From Haloferax larsenii JCM 13917 (lineage in GTDB: Archaea; Halobacteriota; Halobacteria; Halobacteriales; Haloferacaceae): a stretch of 49,031 bases of DNA. Positions within the stretch are counted from its first letter, which is position 1. Every line of letters starts with the position of its first letter. The notes below the pieces were generated by a model, which ran no database searches, was not told where the DNA came from, and was given only the letters and a program-made list of their open reading frames with translations. The stretch is taken from NCBI RefSeq assembly GCF_000336955.1, contig NZ_AOLI01000017.1:126819-175849 (forward strand). The letters are read 5' to 3'. The position numbers and the translations under genes are program-made. Positions 40,876 through 48,445 of this stretch are shown piece by piece.

Positions 40876-42474
40876 TCAGTTGTTCAGCGTGACCTCTCCG
40901 TTAGCCGCCGAGCCGTCGTGTTCCGTCGTCGTGGACGTCGACTGTTGGCTGGTAGTGTCTCCCGACGCCGACTGCTGGCTGCTCACGTCGGTGCCAACTG
41001 ACTGTTGACCGAGGGTGACGTCGGATGCCGAGTCGCTGGAGTCGAACTGGCCGACGAGCGACTGGAGTCTCTGTGCGCGCTCCGAGAGCGCTTCCGACGC
41101 GGATGCAATCTCCTGGGTCGTCGCCGTCTGCTCTTCGGCCGCCGCCGAGACGTTCTGCGCCTCGGAGGCCGTCTTGTCGCTGAGGTTCGTAATCTCGTCC
41201 ATCGTCGTGACGACCTCTTGGGTCGACTGCGCCTGTTCGTCGGTGGCGCTGCTGATAGACTGGATGGCGTCGTTGCTCTCTTCGATTTTGCCGACGATTT
41301 CTTCGAGCACGTCGACGGTCTCGCCGACCGTCTCACGGCTGGATTCGACCTCGGCTCGGGTCTCGAAGGTGTCTTCGGCGACGTTTTCGGTGGACGTTTC
41401 GATGTCCTCGATGAGTGATTCGACTTCCTGGGTCGCGTCGGCGGTCTCTTCGGCGAGCGTCTTCACTTCGCTCGCGACGACGGCGAACCCTTCGCCCGCA
41501 TCGCCAGCGCCCGCCGCCTCGATAGAGGCGTTGAGCGCGAGGATGCTCGTCTTCTCGGCGATATCGTCGATTAGCTCGACGACTTCGCTAATCTCCGTGA
41601 CGGACTGCTGGAGGTCTTCGACTTCGGAGACGGTCTCGGCCGAACGCGACTCCAGTTGTTCCATCTTCTCGATGGTCGAACTGGCGGCTTGCCGGCTCTC
41701 TTTGGCGCGGTCGACGGTCCGCCGCGACTCGCGAGCAATCTCTTCGGAGGACGACGCAATCTCCTCGATGGTCGCAGAGAGGTTGCTCAGTTCGGATTCT
41801 GCGGCGTTGAGGTTCCGGTGTTGCGTCTCGTTGCTCGCGGAAATCTCTTCGATACTCTCGGCGACGTCGGCGCTGGTGACTTTCACCGCGTTCGCGCTCG
41901 CGGTGACGTCCGAACTCTCGTCGTCGACCTGCGCGGCGAACGTCTGTATCTGGGTGATGACCGAGTCGATGGAGTTCATCATCTCGTTGAAGCCCTCACC
42001 GATGCGCTGCATCGCGTCGTTTTGACTCTCCGCGTCGACGCGGACGGTGAGGTCGCCGGCTGCGGCGTTCTCCATCGCTTCACCGTACTCCTCGGCCTGC
42101 TGTTCGAGGTCGGTCGTGAGCGCGTCGAGTTGCGAGCGCTGTTCTTCGGCTTCTTGGCTCTTTGCCTCCGCGTCGGCGACGAGTTCTTTCATGTCCTCGA
42201 CGATAGCGAGCGTCGCGGTGCCGCCGATTGCGAACACGGCAACAGTCGCGGTCATAAGCGGCCCGGTCACGAGGTCAAACACCGCTGCGTAGATACCTGC
42301 TTTTTCGAGTGCGAGGCTGAACGTCCACATCACGCCCAGAATAGACCCGAACGAGAACGTGAGCCAGAATGGTGCTTCTGCGTCGCTGTCGCGGTAGTTG
42401 AGCCACCCCAGCGCTGCTGCACCGACGAAGCCGAGCATCCCGATGGCGTCGAAGATTGGAGCGATTCCGACCAT
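40876..42474 (-). CDS. Methyl-accepting transducer with three-helix membrane domain
   Basis: The 532-residue protein has three N-terminal membrane helices (about 5-25, 36-55 and 70-92) and no large ligand-binding domain, a HAMP-like segment (AGDLTVRVDAES, about 139-170), a long coiled coil and the signalling hairpin at about 308-335. The tip reads ALNASIEAAGAGDAGEGFAVVA; the usual Arg after EAA is Gly322 here. Gln/Ser-rich tail ends the protein. It should signal to CheA/CheW. The gene lies two bases after a small membrane-protein gene, so the two form an operon and maybe a complex. Confidence 0.9.
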   Translation of the reverse strand: MVGIAPIFDAIGMLGFVGAAALGWLNYRDSDAEAPFWLTFSFGSILGVMWTFSLALEKAGIYAAVFDLVTGPLMTATVAVFAIGGTATLAIVEDMKELVADAEAKSQEAEEQRSQLDALTTDLEQQAEEYGEAMENAAAGDLTVRVDAESQNDAMQRIGEGFNEMMNSIDSVITQIQTFAAQVDDESSDVTASANAVKVTSADVAESIEEISASNETQHRNLNAAESELSNLSATIEEIASSSEEIARESRRTVDRAKESRQAASSTIEKMEQLESRSAETVSEVEDLQQSVTEISEVVELIDDIAEKTSILALNASIEAAGAGDAGEGFAVVASEVKTLAEETADATQEVESLIEDIETSTENVAEDTFETRAEVESSRETVGETVDVLEEIVGKIEESNDAIQSISSATDEQAQSTQEVVTTMDEITNLSDKTASEAQNVSAAAEEQTATTQEIASASEALSERAQRLQSLVGQFDSSDSASDVTLGQQSVGTDVSSQQSASGDTTSQQSTSTTTEHDGSAANGEVTLNN

Positions 42475-42476
42475 CG

Positions 42477-42752
42477 TTATTCACCCGCCGTGATGACTTC
42501 TTTCCGACGGACGTACGCTGCTGCGAGGAACATGACGCCTGCTAAGCCGATTCCGACGCCGTGTTCGACGAGGTTCAACACTGGCTCGAGGGCGAACGTT
42601 TCGAGGTTCGTCGCCAGCATCCCGACGACGAGCAACACGTAGCCCGCGGTGAACAGTTTCGTCTCGCTCCTGTACTGCGTGACAACCGGTATGAGTCCCA
42701 CTAGGGACACGACCAGCCCAGTTACTTCGAGTGGTGATAATTCAGCCAACAT
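42477..42752 (-). CDS. Small three-helix membrane protein, partner of the transducer
   Basis: The 91-residue product has three predicted membrane helices (about 8-25, 33-50 and 58-80) and short loops. It is first in the operon, with its stop two bases before the transducer start, and uses the TATA-like box at 42776-42784. A sensory role, like that of a membrane receptor subunit beside its transducer (as for sensory rhodopsins with their Htr), is a hypothesis drawn from position only; it has no retinal-binding Lys in a rhodopsin-like context. Confidence 0.75.
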   Translation of the reverse strand: MLAELSPLEVTGLVVSLVGLIPVVTQYRSETKLFTAGYVLLVVGMLATNLETFALEPVLNLVEHGVGIGLAGVMFLAAAYVRRKEVITAGE

Positions 42753-42775: not shown

Positions 42776-42784
42776 TATTTTAAA
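42776..42784 (-). promoter_or_regulatory. TATA box of the transducer operon
   Basis: The minus strand reads TTTAAAATA, 24-32 bases before the ATG at 42752. The AT-rich spacer continues to about 42860 and includes a palindrome AACATATGTT at 42833-42842. Confidence 0.55.
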
Positions 42785-46267: not shown

Positions 46268-46411
46268 CCATATAACACGCACAACGGTGACTGTTGCGGA
46301 CGCTCCAGTTCCGTTCTACGGGTGGAAATCGCCGTACTGGGGCGACATCGGGGAGAGATTTGGGTGACAGTTCGGAAAATTACCTTTTACGTGTTCGCCC
46401 CCGATTCAGAC

Positions 46412-48445
46412 ATGCGACGCACACTCGCACTGTTGATGGCACTCGTCGTCGTCGCTGGGGGCGTCCCAGTGGCCACGGCGGCACAACAGGAGACTGCGAC
46501 GGTCTCCTTCGAAGACCAAACGACCGCTGGAACGACCGTAACAGTCGACACTGTCACCCTGCCCGAAGGCGGGTTCGTGACGATTCACGCCGCGTCGCTC
46601 TCCGATGGTGAAGTCCTCGGGAGCGTCGTCGGCTCGTCGACCTATCTCGAAGCAGGCACACACGAGAACGTGACCGTCCGCCTCGACGAACCGATAGCCG
46701 AGTCGGGAACCTTCGTCGCTATGCCGCACAAGGATACGGACGGTGACCGCGTCTACTCGTTCGTCGCCGACAACGGCGAGACTGACGGCCCGTACACCGC
46801 CGACGGCGGGGCAGTCGTCGACGACGCGATGGTGAACGCCAGCGCGTCCGTCTCGATGTCCGACCAGCCGACGACCGGTGACACCGTCGTCGTCGACCGC
46901 GTCGAACTCTCCCAGGGTGGCTTCGTGACGATTCACGACGCGACCGTGACCGACGGCGAGGTCTTCGAGAGCATCCGCGGCACCTCCGAGTACCTCTCTG
47001 CCGGTGTTCACGAGGACGTCCGCGTCGAGTTAGACACGCCCGTGACCGAGAACACGACGCTCGTCCCGATGGCACACAAAGACACCGACGGTGACGAAAT
47101 GTACACCTTCCCGGAGACGGACGGCGAAACCGACGGTCCGTACACGGCTGACGGAAGCGCCGTCGTCGACACGGCGATGGCGATGCCCTCGGACACGGCC
47201 ACCGTCGGGTACAGCGAGCAGGCTACCGGTGGCTACTCCATCGTCGTCGACTCCGCGTACCTCCCCGAAGGCGGGTTCGTGACGATTCACGACGGAACCG
47301 TCACCGATGGCGAAGTCTTCGAGAGCATCCGCGGGACGTCGATGTACCTCGACCCCGGCCTGCACCGCGACGTGCGGGTCACGCTCGACTCGCCGCTGAA
47401 CGAGACGACGACGGTCGTCCCGATGGCGCACAAGGATACCGATGGTGACGAGACGTACACCTTCCCCGAATCGGAGGGCGAGAACGACGGTCCGTACACC
47501 GCTGACGGGAGCGCAGTCATCGACAGCGGCAACGCGACTGTCTCCGCGAGCGTCTCGTACAGTCCCAAATCCTCCGACGGCATGACCGTCACCGTCGACC
47601 GCGCCGAACTCTCTGAGGGCGGCTTCGTCGTCATCCACGACCCCGAACTCTCCGGCGGCGCAGTCTTCGACAGCGTCATCGGAGCCTCCGAGTACCTCCC
47701 CGCTGGCGTCCACGAGGACGTGACGGTGACGCTCGACGAACCGATGCGCTCCTCGCAGGTCCTCACGCCCATGGCGCACAAGGACACTGACGGCGACGAG
47801 ATGTACACCTTCGACGAGTCTGAAGGCGAGGCCGACGGCCCCTACGTGGCGAACGGCGGCGCAGTGGTCGCCAGCGCGGACACCTCGGTGAATGCAGTGG
47901 TGTCTGCGGCTGACCAGTCCGGCGACGGCACGACCGTGATGGTCGATTCCGTCACGCTCCACAACGGCGGCTTCGTGACGATTCACGACGCGACCGTGAC
48001 CGACGGTGAGGTCTTCGAGAGCATCCGCGGGACCTCCGAGTACCTCGGCCCCGGGACGCACGAAAACGTCGAAATCACCCTCGACGAACCGCTCGAAGAA
48101 TCTGGCACGCTCGTCCCGATGGCGCACCGCGACACCGACGGTGACGAGACCTACGACTTCCCGGCCAGTGAAGGCGCAGACGACGGCCCGTACGTGGCTG
48201 CCGGGAGTGCAGTCGTCGATACGGCCGCCTACACGGTCGAGGGCATGGAGACCGAGATGGACTCCGACGAAGAGATGGACTCCGACGAGGAGATGACCAC
48301 GGAGACCATGGCGGACGACTCGACGACCGAATCGATGGACGATTCGGAGATGACCGACGAGTCCAACACCGACGTGCCCGGCTTCGGTATCGCCGTCGCG
48401 CTCGTGGCGCTCGTCGCCGCGGCGCTCCTGGCGCGTCGCCGCTAA
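46412..48445 (+). CDS. Surface protein with five DUF7282-like repeats and PGF-CTERM anchor
   Basis: The 677-residue protein has an N-terminal Sec signal (MRRTLALLMALVVVAGGVPVATA), then five tandem repeats of about 115-120 residues, each with VTVDxVxLxxGGFVTIHD, then EYLxxGxHEDVxVxLD and PMAHKDTDGDEMYTFxE motifs. I recall such repeats as DUF7282. The tail is Met/Asp/Glu/Thr-rich and ends PGFGIAVALVALVAAALLARRR, a PGF-CTERM signal for cleavage and lipid attachment by archaeosortase A. It is a cell-surface protein; the role of the repeats is unknown. The Asp-rich KDTDGD segments might bind divalent cations. Confidence 0.88.
   Translation: MRRTLALLMALVVVAGGVPVATAAQQETATVSFEDQTTAGTTVTVDTVTLPEGGFVTIHAASLSDGEVLGSVVGSSTYLEAGTHENVTVRLDEPIAESGTFVAMPHKDTDGDRVYSFVADNGETDGPYTADGGAVVDDAMVNASASVSMSDQPTTGDTVVVDRVELSQGGFVTIHDATVTDGEVFESIRGTSEYLSAGVHEDVRVELDTPVTENTTLVPMAHKDTDGDEMYTFPETDGETDGPYTADGSAVVDTAMAMPSDTATVGYSEQATGGYSIVVDSAYLPEGGFVTIHDGTVTDGEVFESIRGTSMYLDPGLHRDVRVTLDSPLNETTTVVPMAHKDTDGDETYTFPESEGENDGPYTADGSAVIDSGNATVSASVSYSPKSSDGMTVTVDRAELSEGGFVVIHDPELSGGAVFDSVIGASEYLPAGVHEDVTVTLDEPMRSSQVLTPMAHKDTDGDEMYTFDESEGEADGPYVANGGAVVASADTSVNAVVSAADQSGDGTTVMVDSVTLHNGGFVTIHDATVTDGEVFESIRGTSEYLGPGTHENVEITLDEPLEESGTLVPMAHRDTDGDETYDFPASEGADDGPYVAAGSAVVDTAAYTVEGMETEMDSDEEMDSDEEMTTETMADDSTTESMDDSEMTDESNTDVPGFGIAVALVALVAAALLARRR

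Follow-up and report, generated by a model that had tools for sequence, protein, structure and literature searches.

The question raised by this locus is whether a chemotaxis transducer and the small membrane protein encoded two bases upstream of it work as separate proteins or as one receptor. The window, a stretch of 49,031 nucleotides from Haloferax larsenii JCM 13917, contains both genes, and the features of the locus are presented in Table 1. The reading we favour is that both genes together code for a single split membrane receptor with a chemotaxis output, and we regard it as probable. The first-pass annotation had already suggested a receptor/transducer complex; this proposal is strongly supported by identical phylogenetic profiles, by gene order and overlap, by co-evolution of the membrane domains and by the existence of alternative outputs.

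Gene pair and conserved domains

Table 1. Features of the locus, with positions in the window
Feature	Position	Strand	Basis
Small three-helix membrane subunit, 91 aa	42477..42752	-	Translation, hydropathy
Chemotaxis transducer, 532 aa	40876..42474	-	MCPsignal, E 2.9e-41
Three-helix membrane domain of the transducer, residues 1-92	42199..42474	-	Co-evolves with the small subunit
HAMP-like stretch, transducer residues 132-169	41968..42081	-	PF00672, 17.3 bits vs Pfam cut-off 25
MCP signalling domain, transducer residues 264-431	41182..41685	-	PF00015, E 2.9e-41
Gly322, hairpin tip of the transducer	41509..41511	-	Codon read; equivalent of Tsr R388 / NpHtrII R358
AT-rich TTTAAAATA, TATA-like	42776..42784	-	32 nt upstream of the ATG of the small gene; read from the sequence

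The gene positions and the two-base distance between the stop of the 91-aa gene and the start of the transducer gene are as first described, as are the three helices of the small protein and the lack of a ligand domain, none being found in a Pfam scan of the transducer. The signalling domain of the transducer scores 141.6 bits against PF00015 (Pfam cut-off 34.6); the HAMP match is below its cut-off, and its length and position fit HAMP. Hydropathy gives three membrane segments for each protein. Of the two proteins described as mostly embedded in the membrane, only the small one fits; in the transducer the membrane part is limited to about the first 92 of 532 residues.

The 91-aa reading frame is a real gene, because its copies across Haloferax are 97-72% identical and evolve with a dN/dS of about 0.21. 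The corresponding Haloferax values are 0.23 for the membrane domain of the transducer and 0.10 for its MCP region. The closest named relative is H. elongans, with 95% identity across the transducer membrane domain. Given the distance of TTTAAAATA from the start codon of the small gene, the pair is probably transcribed as a single leaderless transcript. Invariant residues in the small protein, based on 45 relatives, are G19, Y38, T48, N49, E51, E63, H64, G67 and G72, which include one His and no Cys; those of the transducer membrane domain, based on 44 relatives, are D9, W37, W50, E57 and G60.

Two other loci of this genome are recorded here. The window also encodes, at 46322-48445 (+), a probable surface protein of 707 aa, which carries five DUF7282 repeats and a PGF-CTERM anchor. 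A tandem of two transducer genes is located elsewhere in the genome (C9:154849-156956; matches L015, L018 and L020).

Distribution of the pair in haloarchaea

We searched the same 391 haloarchaeal genomes with two separate profiles, one of the small protein and one of the first 105 residues of the transducer. Both profiles match the same 46 genomes, every copy is adjacent to its partner and the gene order is constant; this includes three genomes which carry two pairs each. The probability of obtaining identical genome sets by chance is about 10^-60, a figure which ignores shared ancestry. Within the family, the small protein is found in 27 of 148 genomes and the transducer lies downstream of it at every such locus. 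The intergenic gap, where the starts are clear, ranges from -20 to +6 nt with clusters at -4 and at +1 to +3; a 4-base overlap of the genes is present in 16 of 52 loci, and most of the others are within a few bases. No credible solo copy of either part was found in the 391 genomes. The co-occurrence expected by the first-pass annotation is thus borne out, and the finding it named as contrary, a small gene without the transducer, was not encountered in haloarchaea. The small gene and the three-helix domain of the transducer are inseparable in this class.

Two unpaired matches, in G067 and G222, were rejected as chance (E about 1e-3), the former lying in a 722-codon frame and the latter extending over 35 residues. 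A natural fusion of both subunits was also looked for among about 50 pairs and none was found; the long-ORF matches were either a chance match to a large permease-like protein with many helices (L048) or came from read-through of frames lying upstream. A search of plasmids with the small protein gave no match. In one Halorubrum ezzemoulense contig of 4949 bp (L174 / L133), the transducer frame is broken in the region of the membrane domain, with a TGA inside the match and ORFs reduced to pieces of 54 and 174 codons, whereas its small gene appears to be intact; this is possibly a decaying pair or an error of the draft assembly.

Among 44 loci representing the genera, no further gene family is common across genera, and the cassette therefore consists of these two genes only. 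These neighbourhoods also have nothing in common between genera that points to a signal, and they contain no linked metabolic or transport gene. In Haloferax there is a constant neighbour, TGT, which adjoins the pair in 11 of 11 loci.

Co-evolution of the two membrane parts

Distance correlations were calculated for 25 pairs after the removal of close relatives. Small-protein divergence follows that of the transducer membrane domain (r 0.81) far more closely than that of the MCP domain (r 0.28); between the membrane domain and the MCP domain, which belong to the same chain, r is 0.35. None of 2000 Mantel permutations reached the observed value, and the main clades are common to the maximum-likelihood trees of both membrane parts. 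Since the small protein tracks the membrane domain and not the signalling domain, the two membrane parts behave as one unit. Origin of the two parts by duplication was considered and rejected: comparison of the small-protein profile with the transducer-domain profile by hhalign gave nothing, so that they are not detectably paralogous despite their similar layout.

Topology, conserved polar residues and structure models

The mean net charge along the small protein is -1.2, +1.4 (loop 1), -1.5 (loop 2) and +2.4 (C-terminus), and this pattern predicts an N-outside/C-inside orientation. The transducer must have its C-terminus inside, so its N-terminus is outside. The helix limits of the predicted structure model put T48, N49, E51, E63 and H64 in the small protein, as well as D9 and E57 in the transducer, on the outer side.

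These positions bear on the alternative that the small protein serves the assembly or stability of the transducer as a chaperone-like subunit, and that the transducer senses alone, for example the membrane potential as MpcT does. Obligate pairing and co-evolution of the membrane domains would suit a scaffold equally well, and MpcT, the reported potential transducer of Halobacterium, has two predicted helices (PMC3579733). However, the best-conserved residues of the small protein are polar or charged and are predicted to be on the outer side, a pattern that resembles a functional site more than simple packing, and free-standing pairs exist without any transducer to assemble (see below). We consider this alternative unlikely.

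Structure prediction was carried out with AlphaFold2. A natural in-frame read-through of one pair gave a model with pLDDT 82.8 and pTM 0.77, in which the linker is disordered and TM3 of the transducer runs on as one helix into the coiled coil. For the Haloferax mucosum pair, joined by a 12-residue linker, pTM was 0.44 and the interface was not reproduced; this linker is possibly too short to cross the membrane. The lower of these two values is what speaks for mere neighbourhood or translational coupling, with no physical complex, but joint retention of the genes in the class and co-evolution that goes beyond the output domain speak against it, and we regard this explanation as highly improbable.

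In a sequence search of solved structures, the small protein had no match and the transducer domain had chance-like matches only. When the read-through chain was scanned jointly against Pfam, no known sensor family of 6-7 helices exceeded the cut-off. The fold search with the model returned only 7-helix GPCR-like bundles (Z 12-14.5), the best of which is a designed GPCR-like fold. A GPCR-like fold is not claimed, since unrelated helical bundles reach Z 14 by arrangement alone and the best Foldseek E value is 0.048.

Remote relatives and other outputs

The pair is also found with other outputs. In another haloarchaeal family (L153), the same small gene is followed by the same three-helix domain, here joined to HisKA, HATPase_c and PAS in place of MCP. 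A phylum-wide search found remote pairs outside haloarchaea, where the small gene does occur without an MCP, again beside a three-helix partner. In two of them the small-protein homologue overlaps a second gene of 96-97 codons which is homologous to the transducer membrane domain and contains no output domain; the profile E values for the small part and the membrane-domain part are 1e-12 and 1e-8 in L195, and 2e-9 and 1e-12 in L197. More divergent versions of this free-standing pair, two proteins of ~95 residues, are L196 and L198. The genomes with free-standing pairs have no PF00015 match, one of them being only 82% complete. They (G487, G498 and G464) belong to archaea of a small class of the same phylum and are 1.0-1.4 Mb in size; their second subunit ends in LKP[IV].

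In L213 (G733) and L214 (G449), the small protein (E 3e-15 and 5e-8, respectively) overlaps the gene of a three-helix histidine kinase. The membrane domains of these kinases show weak homology to that of the transducer (hhalign E 0.017 and 0.0012, comparison of two profiles). Just upstream lie a PAS/histidine-kinase ORF and a response-regulator-like ORF in L213, and a PAS_10 protein in L214.

The remote pairs also differ at two of the conserved polar positions. H64 is lost together with E57 in L213 (Gln/Gln) and in L196 and L198 (Trp/Lys), whereas L195, L197 and L214 keep both. This amounts to two or three events of coupled loss, which is suggestive only.

The module can be separated from the chemotaxis output and, judged from its spread, is probably older. 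The fuller version of this history is more tentative, and we hold it somewhat less likely to be right than wrong: a split sensor module of 3+3 helices in two chains would predate haloarchaeal chemotaxis, occur as two free proteins in archaea without chemoreceptors and have been recruited separately by transducers and histidine kinases; its sensing centre would be a Glu/His site between the subunits. The two free small proteins in archaea without MCPs would also suit a pair which is primarily a small transporter, channel or enzyme, to which haloarchaea added a transducer to monitor its activity. This is improbable, as every attached output is a signalling domain (MCP or histidine kinase) and the neighbourhoods hold no metabolic or transport gene linked to the pair.

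Relation to known transducers

Exactly two copies of the pair are present in H. salinarum DSM 3754. The plus-strand pair is followed by an 810-aa HAMP-MCP protein, an OpuAC binding protein and a 237-aa rhodopsin; these neighbours are CosT, CosB and SRII, and the transducer of this pair is therefore Htr7 (OE3473F). The second copy is probably Htr17 (OE3436R), based on helix count and strand: Htr7 and Htr17 are the only Halobacterium transducers listed with 3 predicted helices (PMC3579733). The transducer of the window belongs to this Htr7/Htr17 group: its three-helix N-terminus is homologous to those of the Halobacterium copies (L136, L137/L175), and the small gene is adjacent. The same 2012 survey gives no assigned signal for 10 of the 18 Halobacterium transducers, and reports that Htr17 co-purified with CheA and CheY and not with CheW (PMC3579733). 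No pull-down in the published paper searched links the small protein to Htr7 or Htr17; mass spectrometry readily overlooks small membrane proteins. No description of the small partner genes of Htr7 and Htr17 was found in the literature searched.

The transducer of the window is, judged from gene neighbourhood, the orthologue of Haloferax Htr7; it is also related to Halobacterium Htr7. By locus-tag order, Haloferax volcanii Htr7 (HVO_1999) lies two genes from TGT (HVO_2001), the constant Haloferax neighbour of the pair; the same order would make HVO_2000 the small gene, of which no study was found in the literature search. Htr7 of Haloferax volcanii is more abundant in rods than in disks (PMC10869688), and its transcript is lower in a swarming-defective mutant (PMC10716476).

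The closest parallel is that of the sensory rhodopsins. As in SRII-HtrII and SRI-HtrI, a separate gene for a membrane protein, here the putative receptor subunit, lies beside the transducer gene, and the output is of the MCP type, here with a putative HAMP. The pair also combines obligate adjacency with co-evolving membrane parts, as would be expected of a receptor and its transducer. Helix-to-helix signalling within the membrane, established for NpSRII/NpHtrII, is here proposed by analogy. The differences are clear: a sensory rhodopsin has 7 helices and about 237 aa, whereas the small subunit has 3 helices, 91 aa and no retinal site; HtrII and HtrI have 2 helices, whereas this transducer has 3. 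The small protein has no Bac_rhodopsin (PF01036) match and is not a seven-helix opsin. MpcT (Htr14) is similar in being a membrane-bound transducer tied to a membrane signal (PMC3579733); apart from its helix number it differs in that no membrane partner of it is reported in the literature searched. 7TMR-DISM (PF07695) matches 35 of 45 small proteins weakly (best E 4.8e-6), and the match of the small protein in the window covers the last third of the model with 21 bits, under the curated cut-off of 29; in contrast, the transducer domain has no match, and the membrane part is here split over two genes.

We read the pair as analogous to sensory rhodopsin-Htr yet unrelated to rhodopsin, a putative split receptor feeding CheA. 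Receptor-transducer pairs are already known from the sensory rhodopsins, so this kind of system is known; a 3+3-helix, non-rhodopsin version which swaps outputs was not found in the literature searched, which omitted most subscription journals.

The signalling tip

Residue 322 of the transducer is Gly, in EAAGAGD, as had been noted. Based on published work (PMC8144572) and the E-A-A-x-A-G spacing, it aligns with Tsr R388 / NpHtrII R358. In the trimer of dimers, this Arg pairs with Tsr E385 / NpHtrII E355 to make an ionic lock between dimers (PMC8144572). Across the family of the pair, Gly is found in 11 of 11 Haloferax copies and in G027, Thr in two f4 copies and Arg in most others, including the Halobacterium copies. 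DNA-pattern counts in 98 relatives gave 16 for IEAAGAG (12 of them in the family of this pair) against about 398 for IEAARAG, a few of which may be chance; in the genome of the window the counts are 1 Gly and 17 Arg. The observation on the tip is upheld, but Gly is not a property of the module: because most relatives keep Arg, Gly322 is a lineage change, and it is real, fixed and specific to Haloferax. An effect on CheA/CheW coupling is plausible; as E319 is kept, one direction of the lock could still be available to mixed trimers.

Outside the pair family, further sites whose DNA would encode IEAAGAG are located at G112:C12:90057-90076, G015:C2:534921, G042:C10:218615 and G027:C1:80368. In the subclade of L137, L143 and L148, the tip loop is longer by several residues (EAARAGSGGGSNGDGF and similar).

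Proposed mechanism and implications

In the split receptor that we propose, the 91-aa protein would bind the transducer and pack its three helices against the three-helix domain, which would amount to about six helices for each transducer chain and twelve for a dimer. A signal may act at an outer-face site at the subunit interface, to which the small subunit would contribute T48-N49-x-E51 and E63-H64 and the transducer D9/E57; conservation by itself is no proof of a ligand site. Occupancy or protonation of this site would shift TM3 of the transducer, which is predicted to lead straight into the HAMP/coiled coil, so that the HAMP/MCP rod would move and CheA activity would be altered, in much the way that HtrII is driven by its sensory rhodopsin.

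The likeliest signal is a proton, a cation or a small membrane-partitioning molecule reached from outside. The pair may instead sense a property of the membrane itself (potential, quinone redox state or lipid state), which is compatible with a split receptor as a choice of signal. Both subunits lack an extracellular domain, and titration or quinone binding would be possible at the invariant His and at several acidic residues within the membrane or close to it; however, with one invariant His and no invariant Cys, the small protein shows no evident redox cofactor motif (paired heme ligands, for instance). We hold this choice of signal to be doubtful, although less so than a role in assembly.

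For the haloarchaea, Htr7, and probably Htr17, gain an obligate partner gene which is apparently undescribed; testing either transducer alone would therefore miss half of the receptor. For archaea more widely, the pair would represent a portable two-chain membrane input which serves both chemotaxis and two-component kinases, a non-rhodopsin counterpart of the sensory rhodopsin-Htr system.
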